From positions 19,906-83,905 of the forward strand of contig CALVXG010000010.1 of NCBI GenBank assembly GCA_944368925.1: 64,000 nucleotides of DNA, written 5' to 3'. Positions within the stretch are counted from its first letter, which is position 1; every line of letters starts with the position of its first letter. The notes under the pieces were generated by a model that made no database searches, was not told the DNA's origin, and saw nothing but the letters and a program-made list of their open reading frames with translations. The DNA comes from an uncultured Clostridia bacterium (GTDB lineage Bacteria > Bacillota > Clostridia > Christensenellales > Borkfalkiaceae). Positions 33,583-63,564 of this stretch are shown here, piece by piece. A program made the translations under genes and the position numbers.

Positions 33583-33583
33583 A

Positions 33584-33609: not shown

Positions 33610-33617
33610 CTTGTTTT

Positions 33618-34448: not shown

Positions 34449-34593
34449 AAGCCTACCTACAAATTAATACCGAGCCAACCATAAGCCAACCGTCCGCGGG
34501 GCGTGCTAATCACTCAAACGCCGTTGGGCTTTGTTGCGCGGTTCGAAATTACAAACAACTCTCTCCGACTATCGCCGAACACGCTTTGGCTTT

Positions 34594-38974: not shown

Positions 38975-39186
38975 ATTTTCCCTATATTTCAGGCATATAA
39001 GCCCGTTTTTTTCCGATTCGATCAGCCCGTCGACAATCCTATTTACATAAAATCCGTCCGCATAAGGCTGAAACCGCAATTCGTTTTCGTTGAAAAATTC
39101 CTGTTAATTACCGCTTTTGTCGATGATCATTCAAGCCATCGTTTCCGTCATCGAAATGCCTTCAAGTTATACAGTCAGCACTTTTA

Positions 39187-39809: not shown

Positions 39810-41936
39810 CTATCTGTAAGAACACACCAAAACATATGTCTGCCCTTTCTTCGTTCCGAATTCTAATACTTCGCCTTTCAGCTCACATACTTTTCTTCTT
39901 TTCTCTTCTTTCCCTTCAAACAGAGATACTTCCAGATATTCTGCCCAAGGATTTCGGATGCGGCAGCACTTTCCCTGTAAACTCTCTATCGTCACTTGTT
40001 TCGGACAGGAAAACTCAAAATCATACGTTGATTCCACACAGAAACCGCCTTTGGCATACAGACGAAACGCAGCCGTAAAATTTTTATGCAGCGGCACCGA
40101 AGGAAATACAGAAATAACACCGTCATAACTTTGAAGCATGCATTCGTTGATTGCCGTGATCGCATTTCCGTTCAGCTCATACCCGCAATTTCCGTCAAAC
40201 CCGATGCAGTTGCCCGCAAGCCTGCTCTTGCTCTGCCGGCCGATCCAGTCATAGACAAAATCCCCCAGTCCCAGACGCGCTGCCCAGATCGGGGAATTAT
40301 CCCACGAAATGAACCCGATCAATTCGTTTCTGCCTATTCTGCGCAGAAAATTGTTCATCAACAGTCTGTAGTTGCCGTCCGTAAGCATTCCGAAAGGACT
40401 GATCGCCTCCAACGCAGGGTCGTCCCAATTGCTTCTCCTGCGGAAAAGACTCTCTTCCCCTGCAAGATAACGCCGCGGATACCCCCCTTCATACAGCGGC
40501 GCAAGATTTTCTTCGATATCCTTTACCTGCGCAAGAAAGTCATCCTGCTTTATGCCGTGATTTTCCAAAACTTCGATCAGCGCCCGGCATACGCAATGCA
40601 GCGCACATACATCGCTGACCGCATGTCTGACGGCATGATAACTCTCCCGCGCGTTTGTCTGTCTGACGTATATCTTGCCGTCTTTCTTCTCCAACAACGC
40701 CTGCATATAAAACCGCACGCCTTTTTCCGCCAAAGTATAAAAATCTTCCGTCAATATCCGTTCATCGCCCGTATATTCGTACTGCTCGTATATCCGCAAG
40801 GCAATTTCAAGCGTCGTCGCATATATTTTTTCCACGGCGCAGCCGTCATTGTATTCCCGCCCGCCAAAAAGCGTCATCGTTTCGGGCAGAGATACCGCAC
40901 CATGCGTCCCGTATTTTTGCGAACAAATTTCTTCGTTTTCCGCCACAGCCGCCAGATACATCCTCTTCATGCTGTCGAAAACACCCCATTCGCCGATCGC
41001 ATTCATACCGCCGTAGAGACATCTCTGGTTGTACCACCAGTACGCCACCGCCCATCCGCGCACCACATCCTCGTCATTCCGAAATACCCCGTTCATAAAA
41101 TGATACGGAAGTGCGGCATACATCCCGCTCAAAAGAAGATATCTACTTATATAATAAAAATGCTCGACTTCTTTCTCCCTGCCGCTACGCAGGACGATCC
41201 AGCTTCTTTCCCACCTTTCTTTCCAGAACGCCCCGCCTTCTTTCATATCGCGCGCCGTATCCCTGTGCAGGATCTCTCCCTCCGATCCCGCCCACCCGTG
41301 CGCAACCGACACAACGGCCGTAATGCTTTTCTGCGCGTGTGAGGGAATGCGGAAGGCGTCTTCTCCCGCACGGCCCGACGCATAAACAGCCAGTCTGTAT
41401 CCGAACTCCGTGCCGTGCTCGATGCCTCGGCGGGACAGCGCTCGGCAATTTTCCGATCCGGAAAATTGAAATCGGTTCCATTCTTCCCTGTCGTCCAGAT
41501 GCGAGACGAACGTTTCTCCGATCAGATCCGTTCCCTCACCCTTTTCAATCTTTTTTTCAAACGCGCTCAGCCGTATGCTCAAAGCGGTTTCACCGTCGTT
41601 GCGAACGCTTATCAAAAAACTTTCTTTGTCCGCCAACGGGTAAAGCCTGATATGCACTCCCCCGCAGCCGATACGCAAAACGTTTTCGTATAATTTCAGA
41701 ACCGCTTTCGCCCCAGAAAAATCCGTCCCTTCGATCCATATGTTTCCGCAGCTCACCTGACTTTGCGGAGATGCGTCCGGATGCGTCACCTGCAGGCGCA
41801 ACCCGCCTGCCTCCGCACTCACACACACGCCCAGAATTCCCGTCCCGAATATCGCATACCGGTCAGTAAGTCTGTGATAACGAAGATCGTGCGAGGATAC
41901 GATCCGCTTTACCGACCCGATTTCCTCCGCTTTCAT
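39810..41936 (-). CDS. GH95-like (alpha/alpha)6 glycoside hydrolase
   Basis: A 708-residue cytoplasmic protein. A beta-rich N-terminal domain (about 1-260) precedes an (alpha/alpha)6 barrel with MNGVFRNDEDVVRGWAVAYWWYNQRCLYGG, the counterpart of the GH95 WNxxxxPPWDSDYHxNINxQMNYW block. The C-terminal NECMLQSYDGVISVFPSVPLHKNFTAAFRLYAKGGFCVES matches the GH95 MLLQSHxGxIxLLPALPxxW end. GH95 enzymes remove alpha-linked fucose or galactose; here the substrate is unknown. It starts within the stop of the URO-D gene (ATGA overlap), so the two are coupled. Confidence 0.75.
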   Translation of the reverse strand: MKAEEIGSVKRIVSSHDLRYHRLTDRYAIFGTGILGVCVSAEAGGLRLQVTHPDASPQSQVSCGNIWIEGTDFSGAKAVLKLYENVLRIGCGGVHIRLYPLADKESFLISVRNDGETALSIRLSAFEKKIEKGEGTDLIGETFVSHLDDREEWNRFQFSGSENCRALSRRGIEHGTEFGYRLAVYASGRAGEDAFRIPSHAQKSITAVVSVAHGWAGSEGEILHRDTARDMKEGGAFWKERWERSWIVLRSGREKEVEHFYYISRYLLLSGMYAALPYHFMNGVFRNDEDVVRGWAVAYWWYNQRCLYGGMNAIGEWGVFDSMKRMYLAAVAENEEICSQKYGTHGAVSLPETMTLFGGREYNDGCAVEKIYATTLEIALRIYEQYEYTGDERILTEDFYTLAEKGVRFYMQALLEKKDGKIYVRQTNARESYHAVRHAVSDVCALHCVCRALIEVLENHGIKQDDFLAQVKDIEENLAPLYEGGYPRRYLAGEESLFRRRSNWDDPALEAISPFGMLTDGNYRLLMNNFLRRIGRNELIGFISWDNSPIWAARLGLGDFVYDWIGRQSKSRLAGNCIGFDGNCGYELNGNAITAINECMLQSYDGVISVFPSVPLHKNFTAAFRLYAKGGFCVESTYDFEFSCPKQVTIESLQGKCCRIRNPWAEYLEVSLFEGKEEKRRKVCELKGEVLEFGTKKGQTYVLVCSYR

Positions 41937-43015
41937 ACCGAAATACCCTTTTTAACAAGCTCGGAAACAAGCTTGAATTTGCCGCAATCCACGTCGGGCG
42001 GACAACTGTCACTGTTGGCAAGAATAAACCGCTTGCCTTTCGCCTCCGCAAGAAGACCGTTTACATAATCCGTAAGCTCTTTTTCGGAAGAATTCCTGAA
42101 AAACACTGGATCGATCCCCCCGATCAGCCCCTTTTCGGGCGGCAATTTCGCAAATGCATCCTTCATGTCGATGTTGCCCGTCGGATAAGGAGTGATCGAC
42201 TCGATAAAATCGACACAGCTGCCGCACATGTCTTCGTACAACGACTTGATCAGACCGCATGCGTGATGGATCAGGATCTTGCCGCCCTGGTGTATAAGTT
42301 TGCCCCAATGCTCAATTTCCGGCAATACGTATTGCCGGAATTGCTGCGGATTCAGCATCGTGGTCGATGTGTCTTCCCAGAAAATAAACGCCTCCGCACT
42401 GCTGCCTAGAGAATATTCCACGCTCTTTACAGAATTTCTGTCAAAATAATACAGCGCCTCTTCCACAAGCTCGGGAAAATCGTACAGAGCATAGTTGAGC
42501 ATCTCTACCCCCGACCAATGCTCCAAAAGCGACTCGAAACCCGTCTTCATCTCCGGCGATATCACGGGAATAAACAACCCCTCTTCCCCTACGTACTTTT
42601 TATCCGCATCGTATCTTTCAAAATTCGGCTTCAGCTTCGTGTTTTTCAGAATATAAATCAGTACTTTGAAATCCTCTTCTTTCGTTACGGGATGCTTCGT
42701 CAGAAACCACGTGTTACTCTCCGCCACAAATTTCTTCTCCTCCGTGATCTTCCCAACCGGCGTACTGTATTCCACATACATTTTATCTCCGTCCGCCCTT
42801 TCCCGCACTTCACAATTCTCGCGGATTACATCTACCAGCAAATGCGAACCCCTGTGCATATAGTCCGCACCCATTCTCTTACAAAAGGCAAGCATTCCCT
42901 GTCTCTGCACTTCCGCAGGCTGCGCTTCCCAAAAATACGCCAGAAAAGGCGCAAACGGCACCCGGTCTACCTCCCTTCCGTACAATGCGTTCAACAACCT
43001 TTCACGTCCTGTCAT
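41933..43015 (-). CDS. URO-D-fold protein 1 (MtaA-like, HxC site present)
   Basis: A 360-residue uroporphyrinogen-decarboxylase-family protein. MTGRERLLNALYGREVDRVPFAP is the conserved N-terminus. KILIHHACGLIKSL gives the His-x-Cys pair that binds Zn2+ in corrinoid methyltransferases MtaA/MtbA, and FILANSDSCPPDVD supplies a possible third Cys ligand. The Arg residues that bind porphyrin carboxylates in true HemE are not evident. It is thus better read as a methyltransferase-like enzyme than as haem biosynthesis. It overlaps the 224-residue gene by 14 bases and the GH95-like gene by four. Confidence 0.85.
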   Translation of the reverse strand: MTGRERLLNALYGREVDRVPFAPFLAYFWEAQPAEVQRQGMLAFCKRMGADYMHRGSHLLVDVIRENCEVRERADGDKMYVEYSTPVGKITEEKKFVAESNTWFLTKHPVTKEEDFKVLIYILKNTKLKPNFERYDADKKYVGEEGLFIPVISPEMKTGFESLLEHWSGVEMLNYALYDFPELVEEALYYFDRNSVKSVEYSLGSSAEAFIFWEDTSTTMLNPQQFRQYVLPEIEHWGKLIHQGGKILIHHACGLIKSLYEDMCGSCVDFIESITPYPTGNIDMKDAFAKLPPEKGLIGGIDPVFFRNSSEKELTDYVNGLLAEAKGKRFILANSDSCPPDVDCGKFKLVSELVKKGISV

Positions 43016-43676
43016 TTTCCGTTCTCTCCCTTTCCTTATAATATTCCGCCAGCAATTCCAGCTCCGTCCAAAGCCGCCCGTTCACCTTTTCAAAGAGCGG
43101 CGTCATCGTTTCCAGCCAGTTCCCTGGCGTCGCGTCCGTCTGCAGTTTCCCCTTGTACCGCGCCTGCGTATACCTGCGCGGCGTTTCGTCATACATGAAC
43201 AGGTACCTGTCCGTCAAACCGATCGAACTGTGCATGATCGGCTCCGCTTTTCCTTCTTCCCGCAGCTGATAATGGTAAAATAAATATTCGGATATACTTT
43301 CCTGCCGCAGTATCCCGAAAAAACACCGCGGCCTGCACCTCTCTTTCCGCATCCAATGCGCCTTGTCTTCCTTGGGTACGTAACTGAATACTTCGGGAAT
43401 GTTCCGCCAGTATGACGGACCGCCTATCCCGTACTGAAGATGCAGATATCCGCTCAAAAAGCCGAAAACCTTTTCCACGGAAAAAACTTCCCCGATCTTT
43501 TCGATATACAGCACGATCCCTTCCCCCGCACGGAATATTGACGCCGTGATCAGATCTGTAAACGCTCCGCTTCGGATCAGCTTGTTCCAGCCGCTCTTCA
43601 ATATGTCCGCATTAAATTGCCCGTTCACCGCAGCATAATAATATTCGCTTTTTATTTCTTCTCGTATTTTCCCCAT
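43002..43676 (-). CDS. Unrecognised 224-residue protein between URO-D genes
   Basis: A soluble protein without signal peptide. Sequence features are many aromatic residues, SGWNKLIRSGAFTDLITASIFRAGEGIVLYIEKIGEVFSVEKVFGFL, GIGGPSYWRNIPEVFSYVPKEDKAHWMRKERCRPRCFFGI, and a C-terminal LWTELELLAEYYKERERTEN. I know no family. It overlaps the upstream URO-D stop by 25 bases and the downstream URO-D start by 14, so all three are strictly coupled. It may be a partner or substrate-handling enzyme for them. Confidence 0.7.
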   Translation of the reverse strand: MGKIREEIKSEYYYAAVNGQFNADILKSGWNKLIRSGAFTDLITASIFRAGEGIVLYIEKIGEVFSVEKVFGFLSGYLHLQYGIGGPSYWRNIPEVFSYVPKEDKAHWMRKERCRPRCFFGILRQESISEYLFYHYQLREEGKAEPIMHSSIGLTDRYLFMYDETPRRYTQARYKGKLQTDATPGNWLETMTPLFEKVNGRLWTELELLAEYYKERERTENDRT

Positions 43677-44653
43677 TTTTTAAACATATCGCACATGTAT
43701 TTTGTGGACTCCTCCGTTATGTTGATGGACGCCGGCATCGGATACGTCTTCGCCATGAAACCGCCGCCGTATCGGCCGAATGTGCCGATCAATTTTTTCA
43801 CACGCTCTTCTATTTCCGCAAAATCTCCCTTCGGCAATACCGTCTGAATATCGCACGGACAAAAAAAGCATATCCTTCCCCCGTACGCTTCGTCCAGACG
43901 ATCGATCCCCATATTGTCCTGCTGATCGATCTGCAATACATCTGTACCGATCTCAATAAAATCTTCAATCAGATCGAATATGTACCCGCAGGAATGTATA
44001 AAAAACTGCATACCCGCTTCGTGAACTTTGCGAATGATCTTTTCGTAAGACGGCTTGAAAAACTTTCTCCACATCTGCGGACTTATGAATAAACTTTTTT
44101 GCAGACCCAGATCTTCGATGGCGATCATCCCGTTCACGCCGATCTGCGCAAACTTTTCGACAACCTGCAGACATCCCTCCGTCAGCTTGCCGATCAGTTC
44201 CTCCAACAATTCTTCCTCTTCCACAAACGATACCATCAGGTTCTCGAATCCGACCAGATCGAGCAGGTGCATGAACAGAAAATTCGGAAACATGCCTAAT
44301 ATGTATTTATCCGGATTCCGACGGATCTGCTCCCGTGCTTTCTCATATCTTTCCGGCTCCGAAAAATCGGGGAACTTAAACGTCCGTACGGCCGAAAGAT
44401 CCGCCAAAGGATACCGACACGGCTCCCCCAGCTGCGTATTGATCGTACGGTACACGACCCCCCACTCCGTCTGACGCGTATTCGGTTCCGCTTCCGTCGG
44501 AATAAAATGTTTGCTCTCCGAGGCAAAGACCCATTCGAAATCTTCACCGTATTTTTCTTCGATCTCGGGCACCCTGTTCGAATCGAAATTGTACGGCACC
44601 CTGTCCGGCCCTTCAAACCGTATCGCCCGCAAAACCCTCTCTTTACTCGTCAT
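43652..44653 (-). CDS. URO-D-fold protein 2 (MtaA-like, HxC site present)
   Basis: A 333-residue URO-D-family protein: MTSKERVLRAIRFEGPDRVPYNFDSNRVP at the start and MQFFIHSCGYIFDLIEDFIEIGTDVLQIDQ in the C-terminal half, giving the HxC metal pair. FFCPCDIQTVLP replaces the usual GG(I/V)D loop and offers two more Cys. Start ATG 44651-44653 has GGAGGCGGGAG ahead; a longer in-frame start at 44719 lies inside the neighbour and is rejected. It overlaps the upstream GH95-like gene by 11 bases. Confidence 0.85.
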   Translation of the reverse strand: MTSKERVLRAIRFEGPDRVPYNFDSNRVPEIEEKYGEDFEWVFASESKHFIPTEAEPNTRQTEWGVVYRTINTQLGEPCRYPLADLSAVRTFKFPDFSEPERYEKAREQIRRNPDKYILGMFPNFLFMHLLDLVGFENLMVSFVEEEELLEELIGKLTEGCLQVVEKFAQIGVNGMIAIEDLGLQKSLFISPQMWRKFFKPSYEKIIRKVHEAGMQFFIHSCGYIFDLIEDFIEIGTDVLQIDQQDNMGIDRLDEAYGGRICFFCPCDIQTVLPKGDFAEIEERVKKLIGTFGRYGGGFMAKTYPMPASINITEESTKYMCDMFKKWGKYEKK

Positions 44654-47114
44654 GCTCCCGCCTCCGCAAAATTGCTCCTTCTTTCGTGATTTCGTATGCT
44701 TCTCCCGCCTTGACGTCAAAACACAAAACTTCCCCCGTCCAGGGCGATTTCAGCCTGCATACGGTATCTGCCGTCCCTTCCACGCACAGAAACGTCACCT
44801 TGCGCCTGCGCATCTTCGCCGATACCAACAGCCCGCCGCGCGCACGGAATTTTTCAAAACCAAACGTCCCGTTTGTTTCGAAAGAAGGGAAAACATGCAC
44901 CACCCCGCTGCGCGAATTCAAAAGACGCTCCGGCTCGTTTTCGATCAGCCGTACCAGCGCGGCATGATCCTTCCGCCCTACAATCGCCTCTATGCTTTCC
45001 TGCGGCTGCATACGGTGAAACCACGCGTTTTCGGCGTACACCGTATCCTTGTTGTACCCCAGCAGATACGGAATCTCCCCCCTGTGCCAGCCGCTCACGT
45101 TGGCAAACGTCCTCATAAACAGCTCTTTTTCCGCTTCGGACGAATCCAGATTCACGTCGTCCGTCAGCAACACGGGAATCCAGCCCGCAAAATGATTGTA
45201 CGGGATCCCGAGCGGGTTTACCCCCGCAACATCGGTCAGTACTTTGCCCTTTTCCGTCTCGTACACGGAGTACTTCGGAAGATTTTTTTCGACATCTTCC
45301 CATTCCCCGATCTTATCGAGATCTTCCCCCAGATAACGCGCCGCTTCTGCCGCTTTGCGCATCGTCCAGCGGATAAACGCGCATGCCGAAGAGGTGTCTT
45401 TGTTTTTCCCGAACCGATAGCGCAGCCCCCATTGCTCCGCCGATACCGTCGGGATCACATGATACCCGTCTTCACTCCTTGTCACATACTGCGCATAAAA
45501 TATCGCCAATTCCCGCAAATACGGATATACGTCATGCTTTAAAAACTCCTCTTCACGCGTATAATCCCAAATATCCCACAAAACTTTGCACACCTGTGCA
45601 CCGATTTCCATACAAAATTCGAACGCGCTGTGCACATGATGATAACAATCCGCTTCGATCGGAGGAAGATACCCGTGCGAGATCGTCGCTCCCGTCATTT
45701 TGAAAACTTCCCGCACGTTCTGCCGCGCCGCATTCAGCCAATGCTTGACCAGATTTACCCAATAGTACAGCCTGTCTTCATGATGCAGCACGATCTGCCA
45801 GGGCGAATCGTACAGATCGTTGTAACAATTCAGCGAATGCCATAATCCCACATCCGCCTGAAACGGCGTATAGACGGAATCCGCTTCCATGCGGACCGGG
45901 TCGGGCCGGCACGACCTTGTGTTGGAATCGGACCAGTTGTGAAACAAATATTTTACATATTCTCTGTCAAAATCCGCTCCGTCCGCATATATGCGGCCGT
46001 TTTCCCGCTTCTCGTAAAATTTTCTGTACCATTCCGCATTCTCGCACTCATACCACGCAAAACTCTTTTTTTCCGTCTCTTGCAGCACTCTCTCGGCGCA
46101 TTGCCGCGTATCCGCCCCGTCATTCGAAGTCTGTACGGTTATATAATGCAAAAAACGCCCGCCGCACGGCACCGTCACTCCGCTGCCCGCCGCCGCATTG
46201 ATCGCATCGTAATCGGGCATGAACATGGGTTCGAGATAATCTGCATTTCCCTTTCCCCTGATCGTCCTTGCCTTCGTCTCCAGATCATATTCGTTTTCGT
46301 GCATCGTCACCGCCGCATCGCCCGTATTCATCGCAAAAGTATAGCCAAACCCCTGCGGGAAAGTCTTCTCCGCAGGAAATTTCTGCTCGATACCGCAGCA
46401 TTTGCCTCTCACAAACGGCTCTGCGGGACGGATCTCTTCCAACATGTGCGGATATGCGGCATAATCAAAGCCGGGAAGCCCGATATTACCGTTTTTGCCT
46501 CGCGTATCGTTGTGTCTGCACAGACGCAGCGACACGCCCTCTTGCAGGCCGCTGCACAACCCTTCGATACAGATAAGATTCCGTGCCATACAGGGCAAAA
46601 TTTTGATTTCCAGCCGCGCACCTGCGTTTTGCTGACAAATCCTGATCAGACCGCTCGACGCAGATATGCTTACTTTCGGCGCAGGACACCCCGCAAAATC
46701 CGGTGCAAGAATCACGATCTGCCCCACCGGCTTCGGCGTCGGGCTGTCGTACGCGCTCCAGGACGGGTATCCGTCCCGCCGCACGCCGTCCGACCCCATG
46801 TGTCCGCCGTATGCCGCCCACGTCGTGTCGCCTTCCTCCGCAAACGCCGGATGAAACGCACCCTTTTTCACTTCTTCCAACGTCACGGGCGCTTCCCGTA
46901 TCACCCTGCGGTCCCATACGTCCGGCTTGGAAAGACTGACCGTTATACGGTCCGCCGGCCCCCACAGCGACGCTTTCAGAACGGGCGTGCTGATGTTGCA
47001 GCCTCTCCCGCAAAACCATAACTCGTCCGTCTGCGGATCATCACAGGACAGCTCACGCTCCATGTATGTCCTGCACGCCGTCTTCCATAAAGGTTTCATT
47101 TCTGCCTTTGCCAT
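44643..47114 (-). CDS. Second GH95-like (alpha/alpha)6 glycoside hydrolase
   Basis: About 823 residues, cytoplasmic. The N-terminal beta-sandwich begins MKPLWKTACRTYMEREL, with ELWFCGRGCNISTPVLKASLWGPADRITVSLSKPDVWDRR resembling GH95 starts. The barrel carries YTPFQADVGLWHSLNCYNDLYDSPWQIVLHHEDRLYYWVNLV, then GYLPPIEADCYHHVHSAFEFCMEIGAQVCKVLWDIWDYT. The C-terminal GVVHVFPSFETNGTFGFEKFRARGGLLVSAKMRRRKVTFL matches GH95 ends. The start could be 47114 or the Met five codons later. It is a paralogue, not a close copy, of 39810-41936, so a different linkage is likely. Confidence 0.75.
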   Translation of the reverse strand: MAKAEMKPLWKTACRTYMERELSCDDPQTDELWFCGRGCNISTPVLKASLWGPADRITVSLSKPDVWDRRVIREAPVTLEEVKKGAFHPAFAEEGDTTWAAYGGHMGSDGVRRDGYPSWSAYDSPTPKPVGQIVILAPDFAGCPAPKVSISASSGLIRICQQNAGARLEIKILPCMARNLICIEGLCSGLQEGVSLRLCRHNDTRGKNGNIGLPGFDYAAYPHMLEEIRPAEPFVRGKCCGIEQKFPAEKTFPQGFGYTFAMNTGDAAVTMHENEYDLETKARTIRGKGNADYLEPMFMPDYDAINAAAGSGVTVPCGGRFLHYITVQTSNDGADTRQCAERVLQETEKKSFAWYECENAEWYRKFYEKRENGRIYADGADFDREYVKYLFHNWSDSNTRSCRPDPVRMEADSVYTPFQADVGLWHSLNCYNDLYDSPWQIVLHHEDRLYYWVNLVKHWLNAARQNVREVFKMTGATISHGYLPPIEADCYHHVHSAFEFCMEIGAQVCKVLWDIWDYTREEEFLKHDVYPYLRELAIFYAQYVTRSEDGYHVIPTVSAEQWGLRYRFGKNKDTSSACAFIRWTMRKAAEAARYLGEDLDKIGEWEDVEKNLPKYSVYETEKGKVLTDVAGVNPLGIPYNHFAGWIPVLLTDDVNLDSSEAEKELFMRTFANVSGWHRGEIPYLLGYNKDTVYAENAWFHRMQPQESIEAIVGRKDHAALVRLIENEPERLLNSRSGVVHVFPSFETNGTFGFEKFRARGGLLVSAKMRRRKVTFLCVEGTADTVCRLKSPWTGEVLCFDVKAGEAYEITKEGAILRRREHDE

Positions 47115-51320: not shown

Positions 51321-51328
51321 CTCTCTCC

Positions 51329-53713: not shown

Positions 53714-53734
53714 ATCTTCCTTTCTCTCCGCCCT

Positions 53735-54787: not shown

Positions 54788-54798
54788 ATCCTGCTCCG

Positions 54799-56673
54799 TC
54801 AATTACTGTAATTGTACCGATAGGCAAACCTGCCGATCGGGGCACTGTCTCCGCTGACATAGTACTCCATAATGTCGTCAGGGATCGTAACGTTGTCGCT
54901 CACCTTGAAATCGATGCACAGATCGTCCGCTTTTAACCCGAGCCTGCTCAAAGGCACGGCAAATATCATGCGGTTCCCGCTGACCCTGTATTCCACATCG
55001 CATACTTTCTTCCATGTGTATCCGTCTCCCGCATGCCTTTCCAGCGAGGTCTTGCCGCTGCCCGTCGGATAACGGTTTAGAACAAAGTTGAAACCTTCCC
55101 AGCTGCTTCCCTCTCCCGTCCCGATATGAATGTTCATCCAGTTGGTCCCCTGCGCATACGGAATGATCGCCGCGGCCGTTTCGACCATGAAATACAGATA
55201 TCCCCCGTCATGTACGGCGCGCGCCGCTATGATATCGTTCCGGTTCGAATAGTCCGTCAGATAATTGCGGCCCGTAATGTCCAACGCATTCCTCTCCATC
55301 GCATCGCGCCGCAAATCCAGATATTTGTGACCGTAATCCCCCCATTTCTCGTCCGAAAGATACAGTCCGAACTGCTCCGGCCGATCGATTTTCAGCCGCC
55401 TGTACTCCGCATCCGACGATTCAAGTTTCTTGAAGTCCCGCAAATTCCTGCCGAATTGCATCACGTAATTGTCCTGATGCCCCCCGCGCATCATTTCGAT
55501 GTCGCGTGAAAACTCCTGGTTTACGGTATCAATAAAACTGACATACGGCGGAAAATTCCATGCACCCTTTCCGACGATCCACTCGTTCCAGCTCGTCGTC
55601 ATCACAATGTCGATCTCGTCCCGCATGTCGATCGCCGTCTGCCACTGCTGCTCAAAATTGCTCCCCTCCGCCACGCGGGCATCGCTGTTGGTCATCGTCT
55701 CAAAATCAAATCCGCGGCCCCAGTTGGAATTGTATGCAGCTTCGTCCGTCCCTTTATAATACAGCGACGTACTGAACGGCGCCGCCGCATGCTCGGAAAC
55801 CGACACGCTGATCGCATTCAGCCCGTCCGTCCCCGGATGCACGACCTGCGGATACTTCCAGCACATCCACGGCAATCCGTCTTCCTGCTCCGTCTCCGTC
55901 GTCGTGGGCCAGATCGAATACTTTATATCAAAAAAATCACGTACTTCCTGCGGCAGATTGTCGACACTCGACCCGGCTCCCGTCTGATCCGTATCCACCC
56001 GTGCTCCGATGATCATAGGTTTCCCGTTGGGAGAAAACCACGTCGTCGGACAATAATTTTCCGCATACAGATTGTTGTACAGATGCGCAATCGTGTCCGC
56101 ACTCTTCGCATTCGTGTAAAACGTCACTTGCGGCGCGTTCCACCCCGCTTTGTTGTAATATTCCAGAATGGGAAGAAGTTTCTGCCAGACATTGTCGTAC
56201 GTAAACCCGTTCGTGCAGTCAAAAAACAAAAAATCTACCCCGAGCGAGATCCAGATCTCTACATGACGGCGCATGACCCATTCGTCGTCACTGTTGTAAA
56301 ACCCGTACAACGGCTCACCCCAGATATGATCTTTCCCGACCGGCGAATCCGCACTGTCCGTGCTCCAAAGCGCTTGAGGATCGATCGCGAGAATCTCCGA
56401 TACGTTGTAGATCGTATCCTGCTTTTTGGATACGTCCAGCCAGGGGAAATAAAATAACCCTACGTACTTCTCTTCACGAAAACCCGTCACGGCGTCCGTT
56501 TCCCGTCCCAATGCGTCCACCGATACCGTATTGTAGACGGTAAATTCCTGGTCCGTCATATCCTGCGGCCGGTCCGCTCCGCTGTCCGCCGTCTTTCCGC
56601 ACCCGGAAAACGCCAGCAACAGCACGAATACCGCCGCCACAAAACACGTCAACGCCCTCTTTTTCAATCTCAT
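54799..56673 (-). CDS. Lipoprotein with GH99-like barrel and C-terminal beta domain
   Basis: A 624-residue secreted lipoprotein: signal peptide of about 23 residues and lipobox LLAFSGC (Cys at about 25). Residues about 65-400 look like a GH71/GH99-type TIM barrel: KYVGLFYFPWLDVSKKQDTIYN, SLGVDFLFFDCTNGFTYDNVWQKLLPILEYYNK, TTWFSPNGKPMIIG, and VMTTSWNEWIVGKG, the last a hallmark of the GH99/WbsX group. The C-terminal part (DIIAARAVHDGGYLYFMVETAAAI...WMNIHIGTGEG) resembles a CBM9/DOMON-like sugar-binding sandwich. It probably cleaves or binds the polysaccharide at the surface. It overlaps the permease stop by one base. Confidence 0.75.
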   Translation of the reverse strand: MRLKKRALTCFVAAVFVLLLAFSGCGKTADSGADRPQDMTDQEFTVYNTVSVDALGRETDAVTGFREEKYVGLFYFPWLDVSKKQDTIYNVSEILAIDPQALWSTDSADSPVGKDHIWGEPLYGFYNSDDEWVMRRHVEIWISLGVDFLFFDCTNGFTYDNVWQKLLPILEYYNKAGWNAPQVTFYTNAKSADTIAHLYNNLYAENYCPTTWFSPNGKPMIIGARVDTDQTGAGSSVDNLPQEVRDFFDIKYSIWPTTTETEQEDGLPWMCWKYPQVVHPGTDGLNAISVSVSEHAAAPFSTSLYYKGTDEAAYNSNWGRGFDFETMTNSDARVAEGSNFEQQWQTAIDMRDEIDIVMTTSWNEWIVGKGAWNFPPYVSFIDTVNQEFSRDIEMMRGGHQDNYVMQFGRNLRDFKKLESSDAEYRRLKIDRPEQFGLYLSDEKWGDYGHKYLDLRRDAMERNALDITGRNYLTDYSNRNDIIAARAVHDGGYLYFMVETAAAIIPYAQGTNWMNIHIGTGEGSSWEGFNFVLNRYPTGSGKTSLERHAGDGYTWKKVCDVEYRVSGNRMIFAVPLSRLGLKADDLCIDFKVSDNVTIPDDIMEYYVSGDSAPIGRFAYRYNYSN

Positions 56674-57533
56674 TATCCCTTGACGCCTCCTATCATGATC
56701 CCGTCTATCAACTGACGCTGAAATATAAAGAACAACACTGCCGAAGGCAGCGCCAGCAAGACACCGATCGCCATCTTCACCCCGGGCGTACGGAAACTTC
56801 CTTCGCTTCCCGCAACAATGAATTTATAGTAGATCCCGAGCCCTACCGTATATTTGTCCTCGCTGCTGCTCGCATAAATCAGCGGCCCCATATAATCGTT
56901 CCAGCACCCCATGAATATGTTGATCACATTCATCAGAATCAGCGGCACACAGATCGGCAGCGTCATGTAAAAGTATCGCACCAGCGCATTCGCCCCGTCA
57001 ATTTTCGCCGCATTGTCCATTTCGCGCGGTATGTTCTTCATGAACTGCATAAACAAAAACACGTTCATCGCCCCGCCTCCGAACAGACAGGGAATGGTGA
57101 GCGGATTGTACGTACCGATCCAGCCGAGCGAATTGTAGATAACGTACATCGGGATCTGCATCACAACGCCGGGCAGCATGATCGTGCTGATCATCATCGT
57201 AAAGAAAAATCTCTTGCCCTTGAAATCACACTTGGAAAATCCGTATGCCACCAGCGAAGAGGACAACGGCGTCCCGATCATGTTGAAGACCGTTATGTAC
57301 ATCGTATTCCCCAGCCAGCGGAGCATTTCCACTTCGAAAATGCCTTTGTAATTGTCCAGATACAGATGGCGGGGGAAAAACCTCACCGGGTACATGCTTG
57401 TATCGATACGGTCCATAAAGCTCTTGTTGATCATGAACACAAACGGAAACGTGAAAAATACGATCAGCGCCAACAGCAAAACATAGGAAAATGCAAGCCC
57501 GATCACGCGGCTCGACTTTTTTGAAATTACCAT
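56673..57533 (-). CDS. Carbohydrate ABC transporter permease (MalG type)
   Basis: A 286-residue inner-membrane permease with six helices. The N-terminus is basic (MVISKKSSRVIG), the EAA loop is AAKIDGANALVRYFYMTLPICVPLI, and the C-terminus ends DGIMIGGVKG, the standard GltC/MalG tail. It pairs with the MalF-type gene three bases upstream. GGGGAGGA precedes the start. The cognate ATPase is not in this window; in Bacillota it is often a shared MsmK-type ATPase elsewhere. Confidence 0.95.
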   Translation of the reverse strand: MVISKKSSRVIGLAFSYVLLLALIVFFTFPFVFMINKSFMDRIDTSMYPVRFFPRHLYLDNYKGIFEVEMLRWLGNTMYITVFNMIGTPLSSSLVAYGFSKCDFKGKRFFFTMMISTIMLPGVVMQIPMYVIYNSLGWIGTYNPLTIPCLFGGGAMNVFLFMQFMKNIPREMDNAAKIDGANALVRYFYMTLPICVPLILMNVINIFMGCWNDYMGPLIYASSSEDKYTVGLGIYYKFIVAGSEGSFRTPGVKMAIGVLLALPSAVLFFIFQRQLIDGIMIGGVKG

Positions 57534-57536
57534 CGC

Positions 57537-58463
57537 TTACATATCCTCCCCGTAAAATACCCATTTGCTGTGTTTGAACAACAATGCCGACATGCACGCG
57601 ATCACGAAAAACAGGATCCACGCAAGCGCCGAGGCATATCCCATATTGAAACTGACAAATGCTTCCTGATAAATGCGCACCGAGATAAAATACAATGAAT
57701 TGTCCGGCCCGCGCCCGCCGTTGTCCGTAATCAGAAAACTGCCGAACATCTGCATCGACCCTATCACGCCGTTGATCAGATTATAAAAAATCATTGCCGA
57801 GCTCATCGGGATCGTTATGCTGAAGATCTGCCTGAGCTTGGACGCCCCGTCCAGGCTCGCGGCCTCGTACAGATCCACGGGAATATTCTTGAATGCCGCA
57901 AGCCATAAAATCATTCCGCCGCCCAAGCCCCAAAACGACATGAAGATGATCGTCATCAGCGCCGAAGAGGCCGACGAAAGCCAATCGGACGCGGGCAGGC
58001 CGAAGGCCTGCACGATCCTGTTCATGATCCCGATCTGCGGCGCAAATATATCTTTCCAAACAATCGCCGACGCAATCGGCGGTATGATGCAGGGAAGATA
58101 GATCAATACGCGGAAAAACATCATGCCGGGTATCTTGCGGTTAAGAAGCAGCGCCAGAAAATAGGACAAAAACATCGTAACCGGTATACTGATGAACGCA
58201 TATATGAACGTGATACGGAACGACCCCCAAACTTCACGGAAATCGACGGTAAAGATCGCCTTGAAATTTTCGATTCCGATCCACTGCGGCGGCCGCATCA
58301 TATCGTAATCCATAAACGCCAGTATGAAAGACTGAACAAACGGTATCGCGCAGAATAAGATCGTGCCGAGTATCATCGGCATGATGAACAGCCAGCCCGT
58401 ATAACTCGATTTTATGACTTTCAGGCTCTTTTTCACGATACCGTTGCTTTTCAAACTCACCAT
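57537..58463 (-). CDS. Carbohydrate ABC transporter permease (MalF type)
   Basis: About 308 residues with six helices. GWLFIMPMILGTILFCAIPFVQSFILAFMDYD is the family N-terminus and YEAASLDGASKLRQIFSITIPMSSAMIFYNLI is the EAA loop. LPCIIPPIASAIVWKDIFAPQIGIMNRI is typical. The start ATG 58461-58463 with GAGGGG upstream is preferred over an in-frame GTG six codons earlier that overlaps the binding-protein stop. Confidence 0.95.
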   Translation of the reverse strand: MVSLKSNGIVKKSLKVIKSSYTGWLFIMPMILGTILFCAIPFVQSFILAFMDYDMMRPPQWIGIENFKAIFTVDFREVWGSFRITFIYAFISIPVTMFLSYFLALLLNRKIPGMMFFRVLIYLPCIIPPIASAIVWKDIFAPQIGIMNRIVQAFGLPASDWLSSASSALMTIIFMSFWGLGGGMILWLAAFKNIPVDLYEAASLDGASKLRQIFSITIPMSSAMIFYNLINGVIGSMQMFGSFLITDNGGRGPDNSLYFISVRIYQEAFVSFNMGYASALAWILFFVIACMSALLFKHSKWVFYGEDM

Positions 58464-58480
58464 ATGTTTTCCCCTCTGCA

Positions 58481-59893
58481 CTATACGCGGCTAAGCTGAT
58501 AATTTACCTTCTTGACGGCATCGGCAATCGTTTCGTCGATCCCTTTCGTCCCCTTGATTCCGTCCAGATTCATCTGGATCATGATATTATAAATTTCCGA
58601 GCGGATCTTGGAAGGCATCCCCATGTGGAACGACGCGGGTGTGAACCGTTCCGGATAACTGATGAACGCTTCCTGATACATCCCTTCCCGCGGCAGTTTT
58701 CTCCAAAGCGCATTCTCGTCTTCCTGCATGCTCTTGAGAATGGGAATGTTCTTGCCCGACCCGTAGACCTCGTACGCCTTTTCGGAAATCAAAAATCTCA
58801 AAAACGCCCACGCTGCGTTCGGTTCGTCCGTACGGCTGTACATTGCATACCCGATCGTTCCGCCGCCGACATACGTCTGTCCCGACGAACCCTCCACGTC
58901 CATTACGGGCATCGGCCAGATATCGATATCATTGACCGTAAAATACCCCGTTTCCGGAAACTCCGCCTGCGGCGACTCCTCCTGCATATCCACGATCGCG
59001 GGACGCGACTGGAACTGTATGGCAACCTGACCGCTCGCGATCGGCAGCTCGAGATTCGGATTGCAATACCCTGCCGTAACCAGACTCTTCATGAATTCCA
59101 TCGCCTTGCGCGTGTTTGCATTGTCAAAGATCGGCTGATTGTTTTCATCGAAAAACTCTACCCCGAACGACTTGTACATTGCATACATCATCGCATCCGA
59201 CTGCAAGGACATCGTGGCGGGAATCCCCGTCTGCGACCAGGGAAGGCTGTTCGAAACCAGATCGTTGTACCCATCTTTCACCCGACGCAGGATCTCCACG
59301 CATTCCGTCCACGTCCAGTCTTTGTCCGGCAGAGGAATCCCCAGCTGCGTCAGTATGGTCGTATTGATGATCGCCACAAACTGATCGTAATTGGTCGGAA
59401 TAAAGTATTGGTTTCCGTCCTCTTTGTAACCGTCTTTTCCCAAACGCCAGATCTCCGGCACAATGTCTTCCTTGTCCAGCGTCCCGTTCTCAAAAGACGC
59501 GTTTACATAAGGAGTCAGGTCTTTCAGGATCTCCCCTTCCCGCAGAGACACCCACATCTGTCCTTCGTTCAGAAAAATATCGGGGCAGGAACCGGGCTTG
59601 CTCAGATCTGCATTGTGCCAGCGCAGGATCGATTCGCTCAGATCGGGCTGCGCCTGCGTGTTTACCTTGATATTCGGGTATTCTTTGTTGAATTCTTCGA
59701 TGACGGAACGCATATCCGCTATGTAACCGGCCCCCGTTGCCACCGTGATCTCCCCCGCATAATCTTTGGAAATGTTGGCATCCACCGCTATGTTCGCACC
59801 AGGATTTTCATAAGATTTGAAGCACCCGGCCGCCGCAAAAGCAAAACTGAAACTCAATGCTCCGCACAATGCCATTTTAACAATTTTATTCAT
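58481..59893 (-). CDS. Sugar-binding lipoprotein (family 1 solute-binding protein)
   Basis: A 470-residue lipoprotein: signal peptide and lipobox FAAAGC (Cys at about 24). GEITVATGAGYIADMRSVIEEFNKEYPNIKVNTQAQPD is the family start; GNQYFIPTNYDQFVAIINTTILTQLGIPLPDKDWTWTECVEILRRVKDG and YAMYSRTDEPNAAWAFLRFLISEKAYEVYGSGKNIPI are characteristic. It delivers an oligosaccharide to the two permeases that follow. The start overlaps the stop of the surface protein gene by eight bases. Confidence 0.95.
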   Translation of the reverse strand: MNKIVKMALCGALSFSFAFAAAGCFKSYENPGANIAVDANISKDYAGEITVATGAGYIADMRSVIEEFNKEYPNIKVNTQAQPDLSESILRWHNADLSKPGSCPDIFLNEGQMWVSLREGEILKDLTPYVNASFENGTLDKEDIVPEIWRLGKDGYKEDGNQYFIPTNYDQFVAIINTTILTQLGIPLPDKDWTWTECVEILRRVKDGYNDLVSNSLPWSQTGIPATMSLQSDAMMYAMYKSFGVEFFDENNQPIFDNANTRKAMEFMKSLVTAGYCNPNLELPIASGQVAIQFQSRPAIVDMQEESPQAEFPETGYFTVNDIDIWPMPVMDVEGSSGQTYVGGGTIGYAMYSRTDEPNAAWAFLRFLISEKAYEVYGSGKNIPILKSMQEDENALWRKLPREGMYQEAFISYPERFTPASFHMGMPSKIRSEIYNIMIQMNLDGIKGTKGIDETIADAVKKVNYQLSRV

Positions 59894-62408
59894 CTTTCTT
59901 CTTCCTCCTTCTCTTTATCTGTATCGCAGCAAATACCGCTCCGCCCGCAACGATCACCCCCGCACAGACGCTCAGTACCACGATCAGCACCGTACTCATC
60001 GGCCCGCGCATCGGCCCGATCTCTCCGTCTCCGTATGTCAGATCTCCCGTATACCCCACGTCCGCAGGCCGTAAATTCAGGCACAGCGTCGCAGCGCGCG
60101 CCGTGTCTCCGCCCGGTACGGCATAAAAATAACATTTTTCTTCTTCAATCGGCCCCACAAGTTCGTCTATATACTCACCGATAAAATCAATCTTGTTTTT
60201 CTCCGTGTCGACCTCGTAATACTTCGCATCGACTTCCTTTCCGTCCAGCATCAGACGCGTATCTTCCGTTACGTTCGTCATCGGGAAAGAAAAATTGATT
60301 TTGCTCTGCTTTTCGTAACTCTTCTCCTGGTTCAGCGCCACATTGATCGAATTGACGGGCCGTACCGTAAATTCCTCCGGCCCTACCCGGTTCCCTTTCA
60401 GACGGCTCAAAAAAGCGATGGTTATATACGCCCTTCCTCCCGCAAAATCCGATTGCTTTATGTTGATGCCTTCCATCACCGACGTTCCGTTTACCGTCAG
60501 TGTCGTGCTTTCCGTTCCGATATCAAACCTGTATACATTCAGATCGTCCAACGACGCATACGGCGCCATTTTACTGTTATCCGTGTACGTGAGACACTCC
60601 AGATAACTTGAGCTTCCTGCCTTTAAATTGATCACTCCCCAGCCCGGGCGGCAAATCAGGAAATCAAAATTATTTTCTCCCGCTCCCTGCCATACGGCCG
60701 GCATATCGATCCGCAAATCGTCGTACTGCGTATCCCGGAACGTGATCAGCCATGAATCCAGATCCAGTTCCGACCAGTCCATACTCCCCGTGATCACGAT
60801 CGGCTTTGTCACGTCATAACTCTCGGCCGAGATCAGACGTTCCCTCGAGTAGGCGTCTCCGGAGCCTTCAAACCTGCGCTCGTTCAGCGTAAATGTGCTC
60901 GATCCGTCTTCATTCACACGCTCCGCCGAACCGTTCAGCGTGATCCAGTCGCTTTCGGGCAATTTGTCGCTCTCCTGCATGCCCAAAAATTCAAAGTCCG
61001 CCGATTCTTCCGTTCCCGCTTGTATTTCGATCCGCGCGCTTTGCAAAGAAATATCTTCTTCCAGCTCGACCGGCAGGCTCCTGATCCCGTCAACGATGAT
61101 CTCAAAGCCTCTCTCCCTTACTTTCTCCACACTCACCGAATGCCGGCTATTGTGCAGATCTTTTACCATCATGTAATTGGAACCGACCGTTTGCACCGTG
61201 TCCGTCAGTATATATTTCACGTCCACATAATCGGTGCGCGCATCAAACGTAAGGCGGATCCCCGTGTCCGCTCCCTCCTGCAAAATACAAACGACCAGTA
61301 TATCGTCCTGCGACGGAGCTTCGCTTTTTATAATAAAATCAAAACGCTGCCCGTTGTCAAAATCCGACGTGAAGCTGCTCTTTGTTTCCAGACTCTTGAA
61401 CCCTTCTACTTTCAGATTCTGTTCCGCATCTGCCTTTCCGTCCGTACGCCCCGTCCAATATTCGTTTTCCAGCGAGGAACCCGTGATCACGTTCACGATC
61501 AGCTCGATGCCCGTATCCTGACCGTTTGCAAAAACACGGAACGTATGCTCCCCCGCTGCCAAAGTCCGGATATAATAACTTTTCAGGGAAATCCTGTCCC
61601 CTTTGAACGTGTAATTGTTCGGCGTCAGCCTGCTGTTTCCGTAATAAATCTCCGGCAACAGGTTTTTCCTGTTGAGTATGTACTGCGCATCGTTGTTCAG
61701 GATCGGCGACCAGTCCCTTACGTTATTTCCCAATGCCTTCACTTCGTCGCCCAGATCGACATCCGTTATGTAACAATATCCCGTCCGATCGCTGAAATTA
61801 TTTGTAAACGACGTCAGCTTCACCGTCACAGAACGCATGTCGAGCGCCATCAGATCGTCAAAAACAGCGGGCGGATTTTGGTAATCTCTGCTGAAATTGT
61901 ACGTCCCGATCTGCAGATACAAGCCGCCTTCTTCCTTTTTTATATTGAAAAAATGACCTTGCTCATCATCCTGCGCAAGCTCCGCTGCAGACGGGTTCGA
62001 CGGGGACGGATAGTATTTCCCGTCAAACAAATATTCCACCGACACCGAATGTAAAATCTCCGCGCTCTCCGTATAACCGCTCCTGATCCTCAGCCCGTTC
62101 CTGCCCGTCCCGTCCAGGATCTCCACTCTGAGCTGGTTTACGCTCGTCCCCGACATATACCCCGTATAATGCGTAATAAACCCAAAGGAAAAACCTTGAT
62201 TCAGATCGATCCCGTATGCCTCCGTCACCGTCCTGCCCACCAATTTATTCAGGCCTGTCTCGTCCTTCCCGATCTCCCCGATATCCGTCACTTCCCAGTT
62301 CGGCCCTACGCTTCTCTCCGTTTCTTCCGCCGCCGCGCCGAACACCGCTCCCGCTATCGACAAACAAAACAGAAAAAACATCAAAAGTATCAGTTTCGCC
62401 TTTGTCAC
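59886..62408 (-). CDS. Large surface protein, C-terminal membrane anchor, X2-like domain
   Basis: An 840-residue exported protein: signal peptide (about 1-24, ending FGAAAE), a very long beta-rich extracellular region, then one helix (TVLIVVLSVCAGVIVAGGAVFAAIQI) and a basic tail (KRRRKKKDE). Residues about 245-310 (ILNRKNLLPEIYYGNSRLTPNNYTFKGDRISLKSYYIRTLAAGEHTFRVFANGQD) match the X2/CBM_X2 immunoglobulin-like module of polysaccharide-binding proteins. Other parts resemble jelly-roll lectin domains. There is no LPxTG. The start is GTG with GGGGGAAGG upstream. It is likely a glycan-binding scaffold in front of the transporter; enzyme activity cannot be excluded. Confidence 0.75.
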   Translation of the reverse strand: MTKAKLILLMFFLFCLSIAGAVFGAAAEETERSVGPNWEVTDIGEIGKDETGLNKLVGRTVTEAYGIDLNQGFSFGFITHYTGYMSGTSVNQLRVEILDGTGRNGLRIRSGYTESAEILHSVSVEYLFDGKYYPSPSNPSAAELAQDDEQGHFFNIKKEEGGLYLQIGTYNFSRDYQNPPAVFDDLMALDMRSVTVKLTSFTNNFSDRTGYCYITDVDLGDEVKALGNNVRDWSPILNNDAQYILNRKNLLPEIYYGNSRLTPNNYTFKGDRISLKSYYIRTLAAGEHTFRVFANGQDTGIELIVNVITGSSLENEYWTGRTDGKADAEQNLKVEGFKSLETKSSFTSDFDNGQRFDFIIKSEAPSQDDILVVCILQEGADTGIRLTFDARTDYVDVKYILTDTVQTVGSNYMMVKDLHNSRHSVSVEKVRERGFEIIVDGIRSLPVELEEDISLQSARIEIQAGTEESADFEFLGMQESDKLPESDWITLNGSAERVNEDGSSTFTLNERRFEGSGDAYSRERLISAESYDVTKPIVITGSMDWSELDLDSWLITFRDTQYDDLRIDMPAVWQGAGENNFDFLICRPGWGVINLKAGSSSYLECLTYTDNSKMAPYASLDDLNVYRFDIGTESTTLTVNGTSVMEGINIKQSDFAGGRAYITIAFLSRLKGNRVGPEEFTVRPVNSINVALNQEKSYEKQSKINFSFPMTNVTEDTRLMLDGKEVDAKYYEVDTEKNKIDFIGEYIDELVGPIEEEKCYFYAVPGGDTARAATLCLNLRPADVGYTGDLTYGDGEIGPMRGPMSTVLIVVLSVCAGVIVAGGAVFAAIQIKRRRKKKDE

Positions 62409-62424
62409 TTGCCTTCCCCCGTCT

Positions 62425-63564
62425 TCATAAACTCAGCTCCGTAAAAGGAAAATCCTTCTTCAGAAAATCCTGCATGAAACATCCCAGTACGCTCCACCCC
62501 CAAAAAGGGTTCAACCCGCAGCCTTGCATGGTTTCGCTCGTATAATACTCACGCAACCCCTCCTTGCGGATCACTTTTTCCGTCTTGTCCGCAAGCTCGG
62601 CCGCCTTCTCCGTGTATCCGTATTTCTTTAAAATCTCAAGCACGATATAGTTGGTCGGGATCCACGTGTTCGCGCGCCAGTTGCAACCCAAATCGTCCCG
62701 GAATTGCTTCTCGCTGTACTTCTTTTCCGTCGCCGCCATCACCGATACGGGAAACGGTCTCCAGAATTCTTCTTCGTTCAGCAGATGCGTCTCGATCAAC
62801 CGCTTCGCCTGACTGTCCGTACAGATCCCCGCCCACAAAGGCATAAATCCTGCTATCGTCTTGCAACAGATCTTCTCGTCCGTCCTCTCATCCCGATCAT
62901 AAAAAAATCCGTCGGCTTCATCCCACATCTTCGACTGCACCGCTTCCTTGATCTTTTCGGCACACTCTCTGTAATACCGCTCTTTCTCCCCCTTTCCCAA
63001 ATACCCGGAGAGCAGCGCCATCGCCGTAAAATCCCTGTACAGATAACTCGCAAGATCTGCGCCCTCACAGAAACACTCGTTCCACCATCCGGCTCTCTCA
63101 TGCTGATTATCCATCCCCGTATGCGGAGCACTGTTCCAGCTCGGCAATCCGTTTTTGTTCCTGTCCTGCTGCGTCATCCAGTACGCCAGATATTTTTCCA
63201 GCCTCACGTAATACTCTTCGGTAAGCCAGGATATGTTCCCGTCCTTCTTCAGAATCATCAGAACGATCTGCGCCAAAAACGGCTTCGCATGCTCCACACT
63301 GTCACACCCCGGATCCGTCACCTGGTTCAAACGGACAATAAATCCGTCCTCCCTCTGCCTCTCCAGAAATACCAAGACCCCGTTGATCGCCATCTGCGTC
63401 CCGTACCCAAGATACAACTGCACAATCGTCTCGAAATATTGATCCCAATCATACAATGTCTTATATTGATACCCTGTAAAATATTGCCTCCCCGTCGCGG
63501 CGTCCGAAAATATGCCGCCGCCGACCAGTTCTTTTAAATTCGATATCGAGTAATTATGTTCCAT
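62425..63564 (-). CDS. GH63/GH37-like glycosidase (trehalase-type barrel)
   Basis: A 379-residue (alpha/alpha)6 enzyme, short for the family and without signal peptide. It has QYKTLYDWDQYFETIVQLYLG (the WDQYF block of glucosidase/mannosylglycerate hydrolase relatives), DRNKNGLPSWNSAPHTGMDNQ (general acid Asp region), LGCNWRANTWIPTNYIVLEILKKYGYTEKAAEL and YYTSETMQGCGLNPFWGWSVLG (general base Glu region). It probably hydrolyses an alpha-linked disaccharide in the cytoplasm. It is the first complete gene of the locus, 16 bases before the surface protein. Confidence 0.8.
   Translation of the reverse strand: MEHNYSISNLKELVGGGIFSDAATGRQYFTGYQYKTLYDWDQYFETIVQLYLGYGTQMAINGVLVFLERQREDGFIVRLNQVTDPGCDSVEHAKPFLAQIVLMILKKDGNISWLTEEYYVRLEKYLAYWMTQQDRNKNGLPSWNSAPHTGMDNQHERAGWWNECFCEGADLASYLYRDFTAMALLSGYLGKGEKERYYRECAEKIKEAVQSKMWDEADGFFYDRDERTDEKICCKTIAGFMPLWAGICTDSQAKRLIETHLLNEEEFWRPFPVSVMAATEKKYSEKQFRDDLGCNWRANTWIPTNYIVLEILKKYGYTEKAAELADKTEKVIRKEGLREYYTSETMQGCGLNPFWGWSVLGCFMQDFLKKDFPFTELSL

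Follow-up and report, generated by a model that had tools for sequence, protein, structure and literature searches.

An operon-like run of 16 genes in an uncultured Clostridia bacterium of the family Borkfalkiaceae (GCA_944368925.1) may import and dismantle a glycan bearing methyl ethers, with five proteins of the uroporphyrinogen decarboxylase (URO-D) family passing the methyl groups to a corrinoid protein encoded on another contig, C3; for this reading as a whole we see the chances as evenly balanced. The genes lie at 39810-63564 of the window, by which we mean the whole stretch of 64,000 nucleotides analysed (positions 19,906 to 83,905 of contig CALVXG010000010.1, here C10). All 16 minus-strand open reading frames (ORFs) were confirmed present, and the gaps at their junctions range from -133 to +21 bases, being mostly overlaps when the longest starts are used. 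This agrees with the first-pass annotation, which had described genes on one strand with mostly overlapping starts and stops, and from the spacing the 16 genes look like one operon and transcript. In order of transcription they encode a GH63/MGH1-like enzyme (GH, glycoside hydrolase), an 840-aa surface protein, a binding protein, permeases 1 and 2, a 624-aa lipoprotein, U5 and a GH31 enzyme, followed by U4, U3, an (alpha/alpha)6-like protein, a GH95-like enzyme, U2, a 224-aa protein, U1 and a second GH95-like enzyme. Such a tightly packed run with glycosidases and a sugar-type ATP-binding cassette (ABC) importer corresponds to a Gram-positive glycan utilisation locus. The window ends where C10 ends (base 83905) and the upstream neighbour of the operon is a truncated gene cut off there, so the locus may be longer. 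The Rfam scan gave no match inside the operon.

The five URO-D-fold proteins, named U1 to U5, are encoded as follows:

41933..43015, minus strand: U1, URO-D-fold protein with an HACG motif (PF01208, 5.8e-18)
43652..44719, minus strand: U2, URO-D-fold protein of the HxCG class (PF01208, 6e-17)
49228..50271, minus strand: U3, divergent URO-D-fold protein (PF01208, 3.5e-4, below cut-off; own-family URO-D profile, 2.1e-27)
50250..51332, minus strand: U4, URO-D-fold protein with an HSC motif and a residue other than Cys at the third ligand position (PF01208, 3.9e-9)
53735..54802, minus strand: U5, URO-D-fold protein of the DxDG...DH class (PF01208, 3e-13; paralogue on contig C11, 65.5%)

The number of five given from the sequence alone holds, with four proteins over the PF01208 cut-off and U3 (20.2 bits, curated cut-off 23.9) recognised by the family's own URO-D profile. 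MtaA binds zinc through His-x-Cys...Cys. In the alignment, the MtaA-clade proteins have the later Cys in 9 of 9 cases and HxCG in 6 of 9, while the full ligand set is not seen in U2-U5, and U1 has HACG and a Cys that lies two residues away from the aligned site. The early His is mostly kept in U1-, U2- and U4-like proteins, often as H-x-C-G, with His, Asp, Asn or Tyr at the position of the later Cys; other residues occupy that position in U2, U4, U5 and nearly all other glycan-linked URO-Ds. The U5 class shows D-x-D-G and D-H, and R160, D204, E210, D211, E275 and K300 are also invariant (14 sequences). This residue pattern fits substrate-side enzymes that would have no need to bind a thiol. 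Cassette-borne and glycan-linked URO-Ds are interleaved in the tree, not split into two clades. The profile of the U2 class (A3) matches MtaA (4ay7, 5.5e-15), and CdmB reaches 8e-4 against A3 with no match to the U5-class profile (A2) at 0.1. The predicted structure of U5 (predicted local distance difference test, pLDDT, 61.4, from six sequences) matched the HemE and MtaA folds about equally and is of low confidence, usable for the fold only; the U3 model (pLDDT 37) was unusable. We ranked U5 as the best methyltransferase candidate, followed by U1, U2, U4 and U3. U5 is most likely a substrate-side methyltransferase removing O-methyl groups in glycan breakdown, and U1-U4 probably have the same role. 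A further URO-D-like type, missed by PF01208 in this genome, occurs at 18972-20000 of stretch L012, running into L013, and at 3747-5003 (minus strand) of L022; it lies in glycan loci too, and the C11 protein has a YGCCEP stretch.

It had been noted that the window holds no corrinoid protein, and this is confirmed: in the genome, which is 93.74% complete, the two B12-binding families match only two proteins, each encoded on C3: a MetH-like protein of 798 aa and a free corrinoid protein. The proposed search for an MtaC-like gene elsewhere was thus rewarded, and the same genome as U1-U5 contains both a corrinoid protein and a reductive activator. On C3 the free corrinoid protein has a U5-class URO-D on one side and an MtaA-type URO-D on the other, and the activator RACo follows downstream on the same strand. 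The two ORFs after RACo, read by eye, we take to encode a DUF2284-type protein and a PocR/AraC-type regulator, and another U5-class gene and a GH78 adjoin the cassette. Against PDB, the closest matches of the corrinoid protein include methyl carriers that bind cobalamin, among them 1y80, a 'predicted cobalamin binding protein' (7.5e-62), and methylamine corrinoid proteins (3.7e-45 and 1.8e-41). The MtaA-type protein, whose gene is the single one of its type in the cassette, matched the methylcobalamin:coenzyme M methyltransferase 4ay7 (1.1e-17); it has FxCG in place of HxCG and a C-terminal thioredoxin-like stretch (PF13192 5.7e-5, just under cut-off; thioredoxin 1nho 2.9e-5), a tail that hints at a thiol as methyl acceptor. 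The thioredoxin-tailed MtaA-type URO-D lies at L011 8686-10044 (minus strand), and a close homologue of equal length at L024 7445-8803 (plus strand), the two genomes belonging to one genus. A presumed substrate methyltransferase shares its operon with a corrinoid protein in the C3 cassette, where it is the U5-class protein, and in stretch L098 of genome G121.

Among 121 genomes of the family, PF01208 was found in 16 and RACo in 13, all of them within the 16 (Fisher 5.7e-15); the three PF01208 genomes lacking RACo are 61, 56 and 72% complete. Free corrinoid proteins, taken as ORFs of up to 384 aa (the next longer, from 427 aa up, were taken as MetH-like), occur in 15 of the 121, and 14 of these carry PF01208. 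A genome-collection scan with U5 alone as query yielded one locus, and an alignment would be the better query for it. We also scanned 398 genomes of the phylum with the U5-class profile at E <= 1e-15, scoring at most five candidates in nearly all genomes. RACo is present in 98 of the 98 genomes with a match, against 218 of 398 overall (5.4e-32). Relatedness was handled by genus count only, which gives RACo in 67/67 genera with a match against 147/267 overall (p 5.6e-22), and in the strong subset (E < 1e-40) it is found in 15/15 (p 9.6e-5). The occurrence of RACo in every sampled U5-class genome suggests an undescribed, oxygen-free removal of methyl groups from sugars.

In some relatives the parts that are separate here stand together. 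Stretch L040 (genome G030), on one strand except for a GntR/LacI-type regulator gene, begins with a partial URO-D, an MtaA type, RACo, a DUF2284-like protein, a corrinoid protein and a URO-D, and continues with the binding protein and both permeases of an importer, a putative glycoside hydrolase of the GxGYxYP type, a Big_2 protein, U2-like and U1-like URO-Ds and GH38. In L098 importer genes, an AAT-family protein and an esterase-like protein are followed by a U5-class URO-D, a corrinoid protein and MtaA. Importer genes also lie near an MtaA-like and a U5-class gene in L092 (G421), where a phosphorylase-like protein and a LacI regulator were among the scanned proteins, and in L093 (G443). The two genes of this pair overlap in G421 (L092 8756-10937, plus strand) and form one 725-aa frame in the single-contig genome G443 (L093 8618-10795, plus strand), followed by GH35 and GH43; the fused frame could be a sequencing error at the junction. 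Outside the family, where proteins from 7 of 20 stretches were scanned, two URO-Ds alternate with GH5-, GH106- and GH2-type proteins in L108, and two stand with an importer and a GHL6/GH42-like protein in L099; the two proteins scanned in L107 are both housekeeping, and those in L111 are a binding protein and a major facilitator superfamily carrier. The esterase-like protein of L098 (6873-9122, plus strand), upstream of the U5-class URO-D and the corrinoid protein, contains a glucuronyl-esterase-like stretch.

Within the family, one to three nearby proteins were scanned at each of 20 loci that carry a URO-D away from the cassette (30 proteins in total). Eight are flanked by glycosidases (L023, L026, L028, L031, L032, L034, L039 and L042), L022 has a sulfatase and sub-threshold glycosidase matches, and L021 a 3-keto-disaccharide hydrolase family protein. 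We compared 86 proteins flanking non-cassette URO-Ds in relatives with 88 control proteins, the latter being 88 of 123 control ORFs (those of L112-L125, L129 and L138), with 18 of the 28 control stretches beginning at the first base of a contig. Counts come from the first 25 of about 160 families, and single matches are mostly hidden. Among the families listed, the URO-D flanks have three members each of GH78, GH130 and MGH1-like, two of GH20, two sulfatases, three AraC-type and two LacI regulators, and the control proteins include no glycosidase family with two or more members (GH1 has one). The comparison favours glycosidase families near URO-D, and the linkage in the family is real and frequent, not universal. 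According to the first-pass annotation, the functional link would fall if related genomes carried the glycosidases without URO-D genes. This is partly the case: in a search run for GH78 only, GH78-like enzymes are in 80 of 121 family genomes against 16 for PF01208, so glycosidases as families do without URO-D. In L032 (3787-5718, plus strand), just before the URO-D gene, one frame joins Methyltransf_4 (tRNA-methyltransferase-like) and a trehalase-like domain, which may reflect either a fusion or a wrongly called start.

A duplicate of the window locus lies on C11, with paralogues of the lipoprotein (44%), the permeases (54 and 53%), the binding protein (32%), GH95 (38%), GH63 (43%) and U5 (65.5%). 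Among U1-U4, U2 alone matches there, at 27-31%. The URO-D kept with this gene set is U5, since the C11 set retains its paralogue.

In the mechanism that we propose, the operon would take up and break down a complex, probably plant, glycan bearing methyl ethers, its glycosidases and ABC importer supplying methylated oligo- or monosaccharides to the cell. The URO-Ds would work inside the cell in the methyltransferase I (MTI) role, each binding a different methylated piece, and the methyl group would move from the substrate to Co(I) of the C3-encoded corrinoid protein, which RACo would hold in the reduced state. The MtaA-thioredoxin protein or the MetH-like protein may then hand the methyl group to a thiol or to homocysteine. 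More broadly, and as a proposal somewhat more likely to fail than to hold, anaerobic clostridia would possess a dispersed, B12-dependent O-demethylation of glycans, with many locus-specific URO-Ds, each for one methylated sugar, and one shared corrinoid protein. Methyl ethers occur on certain sugars of plants and algae, and the one enzymatic removal from a sugar found in the literature searched is a P450 monooxygenase reaction. A route without oxygen would account for the complete use of such glycans by anaerobes, feed methyl groups into one-carbon metabolism and assign a role to some members of the large 'uroporphyrinogen decarboxylase family'. We found no link of corrinoid/UroD methyltransferases to glycan O-demethylation in a search of titles and abstract openings of the open full-text literature, with the broadest topics sampled in small part and subscription papers outside its scope.

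As for the substrate, the nearest solved relatives of the GH31 enzyme are alpha-xylosidases. An alpha-xylosidase-type GH31 and GH95-like enzymes would suit xyloglucan or rhamnogalacturonan II (RG-II), and we name these two as a suggestion only. RG-II contains 2-O-methyl-xylose and 2-O-methyl-fucose, as stated in the available excerpt of PMC12168206. The earlier proposal that the URO-Ds act as demethylases in the glycan locus has good support in the C3 partners, the co-occurrence and the joint clusters; its further ideas, that the methyl groups block glycosidases and that a particular O-methyl sugar is involved, have none here.

Several observations weigh against methyl transfer to the C3 corrinoid protein. 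Neither the window nor the C11 locus contains a corrinoid protein, and five URO-Ds to one corrinoid protein are many. No dedicated methyl-tetrahydrofolate methyltransferase was found in the genome, whose single PF00809 match is in the MetH-like protein, and the U5 class (profile A2) has no close solved relative in PDB. The genome G038 (76% complete) has a free corrinoid protein and no PF01208 match, and G033 and G078 have PF01208 and no free corrinoid protein. The co-occurrence is partly built in because the cassette itself contains URO-Ds, and the U5 profile at 1e-15 detects further corrinoid methyltransferases too, so that some association is to be expected. Only in 8 of the 20 scanned non-cassette loci of the family does a glycosidase over cut-off lie within about 7 kb, and several stand beside housekeeping genes (rpoB, dxs, alanine racemase). 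Importer permeases show no excess by URO-D (4/86 against 3/88 in controls). Among the 53 GH78 matches listed, six are within 10 kb of a URO-D (1.84 expected, p 0.011) and three within 5 kb (1.13 expected, p 0.11); with only this weak excess, GH78 was rejected as a linked URO-D partner. A search for enzymes specific for an O-methylated sugar, made for GH67 and GH115, gave none in the URO-D genomes: four of the 121 family genomes carry GH115, and the single match to GH67 is below threshold. We disfavour 4-O-methylglucuronate as the methyl donor because GH67 and GH115 are absent from every URO-D genome of that sample.

Some of these facts would also suit URO-Ds that have left the corrinoid pathway for another metal- or carboxylate-dependent sugar chemistry (e.g. 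decarboxylation or a lyase reaction), their co-occurrence reflecting shared cassette ancestry or lifestyle. The ligand motifs diverge (DxDG...DH; HSC without the third Cys), the operon is without a corrinoid gene, U3 and U4 are remote, and many URO-D loci of the family have no glycosidase nearby. However, the activator accompanies the class in 98 of 98 phylum genomes, and members of the class are found inside the cassette and one, in a relative, shares a frame with an MtaA, and we regard this chemistry as unlikely. Somewhat less probable still are corrinoid methyltransferases whose donor is a methoxylated aromatic, a lignin or flavonoid aglycone uncovered by the glycosidases. The characterised UroD-superfamily O-demethylases do use methoxylated aromatics, in the excerpt available of PMC13222342, and rhamnosidase-like genes are frequent in these genomes; but the set of genes resembles that of a polysaccharide locus (four proteins of glycosidase families, an importer, a surface protein and a paralogous second locus), Pfam found no aromatic-handling family among the operon proteins, and some relatives pair URO-Ds with GH38, GH35, GH43 and GH2.

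A role of the cassette in the use of methyl-sulfur or methyl-selenium compounds, the proposal made for type 1 mlp clusters, with an incidental glycan linkage, is improbable. The parts of the cassette resemble those clusters (MtaA-like, corrinoid protein, activator and no tetrahydrofolate methylase, following the excerpt of PMC10418091), and the thioredoxin fusion suggests a thiol, yet the cassette genes are joined to importers in separate genomes, in L040 also to glycosidases, and five paralogues lie within one glycan operon. Haem synthesis by HemE, which the Pfam label alone would indicate, was rejected as hardly conceivable, in agreement with the first-pass annotation, since the HemE signature RQAGR (N-terminal, as in E. 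coli HemE) is missing from all ten URO-Ds of this genome in the tree and 105 of 121 family genomes are without any PF01208 match.

The other genes of the operon, and one downstream of it, are the following:

62425..63564, minus strand: GH63/trehalase/MGH1-like (alpha/alpha)6 glycosidase, first operon gene seen (PF22422 1.4e-36; PF01204, Trehalase, 6.8e-22; C11 paralogue 43%)
59886..62408, minus strand: 840-aa surface protein with, as judged by eye, a signal peptide and a membrane anchor at the C-terminus (CBM_X2 7e-4, sub-threshold)
58481..59893, minus strand: solute-binding lipoprotein of the sugar-type ABC importer (PF01547 3.9e-26)
57537..58481, minus strand: ABC permease 1 (PF00528 4e-8)
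56673..57533, minus strand: ABC permease 2 (PF00528 2.6e-16)
54799..56673, minus strand: 624-aa lipoprotein without a Pfam family (paralogues of 33-44% on C11 and C3)
51329..53713, minus strand: GH31 enzyme (PF01055 1.3e-73; BoGH31A 2.2e-123)
47096..49360, minus strand: (alpha/alpha)6-like protein (GH127 8.5e-4, sub-threshold)
44643..47168, minus strand: GH95-like enzyme (PF22124 6e-15)
43002..43676, minus strand: 224-aa protein, no family match
39810..41936, minus strand: GH95-like enzyme, last operon gene (PF22124 1.7e-9; DUF5703 protein 9hyq 5e-5; C11 paralogue 38%)
36926..39079, minus strand: GH78-like enzyme, 730 bases downstream of the operon on the same strand (PF17389 3.9e-8)

The GH31, the two GH95-like, the GH63/GH37-like and the importer assignments made from the sequence alone are sustained by Pfam matches over cut-off. 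For the third (alpha/alpha)6 protein the ORF is present and the family assignment has the sub-threshold GH127 match; it is perhaps a glycosidase, and its true start is probably later than that of the longest ORF. The 840-aa surface protein possibly binds carbohydrate, and the GH78-like gene may or may not belong to the operon. The 624-aa lipoprotein had been called GH99-like. It has no Pfam family, and the PDB search at E <= 1 gave one match, to an unrelated protein (0.62); with nothing relevant found there, the GH99 label is unproven. At least four paralogues in the genome (33-44%) are found at L013 5207-7027, 13780-15594 and 15596-17482 and at L016 3094-4983, and we consider the family a candidate for a new glycan-active family. 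Elsewhere in the window, the stretch 33492-35394 resembles a small element inserted at a tRNA gene: a tRNA-Ser comes first, then a gene for a phage-type integrase (33621-34448, minus strand) and a Rep gene (REP_ORF2-G2P, 34597-35394, minus strand). An M-box magnesium riboswitch lies at 11213-11373 (minus strand, 81 bits).

Among the closest known systems are those of the UroD superfamily, which includes aryl O-demethylases and CdmB. The acetogen O-demethylases OdmB, VdmB and MtvB, together with CdmB, belong to the same superfamily as U1-U5, are MTI proteins and rely on the kinds of partner proposed here: a corrinoid protein of small size, an activator that depends on ATP, and a second methyltransferase (excerpt of PMC13222342). 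Their donors, as far as that excerpt goes, are aryl methyl ethers or haloalkanes, whereas the genes described here stand with glycosidases and a sugar importer; in addition, the corrinoid partner of the window URO-Ds would be encoded elsewhere in the genome and the identity to CdmB is remote. Relative to MtaA and MtbA, the C3 protein is like MtaA in its match to 4ay7 and differs by the thioredoxin domain and FxCG, while U2-U5 do not show the full ligand set in the alignment. The type 1 mlp clusters of Kountz and Balskus, with a proposed methyl-sulfur or selenium role, share several UroD-superfamily genes, the corrinoid protein, the activator and the lack of a tetrahydrofolate methylase; the excerpted description mentions no glycosidases or sugar importers, and they have Mlp2 and Mlp3 where the C3 cassette has one MtaA-type gene (PMC10418091). 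If our reading is right, the dispersed B12 system would be the oxygen-free counterpart of sugar demethylation by cytochrome P450. The P450 route relies on a monooxygenase that forms formaldehyde and whose fold is unrelated to URO-D. The task is nevertheless the same, the removal of a methyl ether from a sugar, as when a P450 demethylates 6-O-methyl-D-galactose in porphyran degradation (excerpt of PMC10033563).

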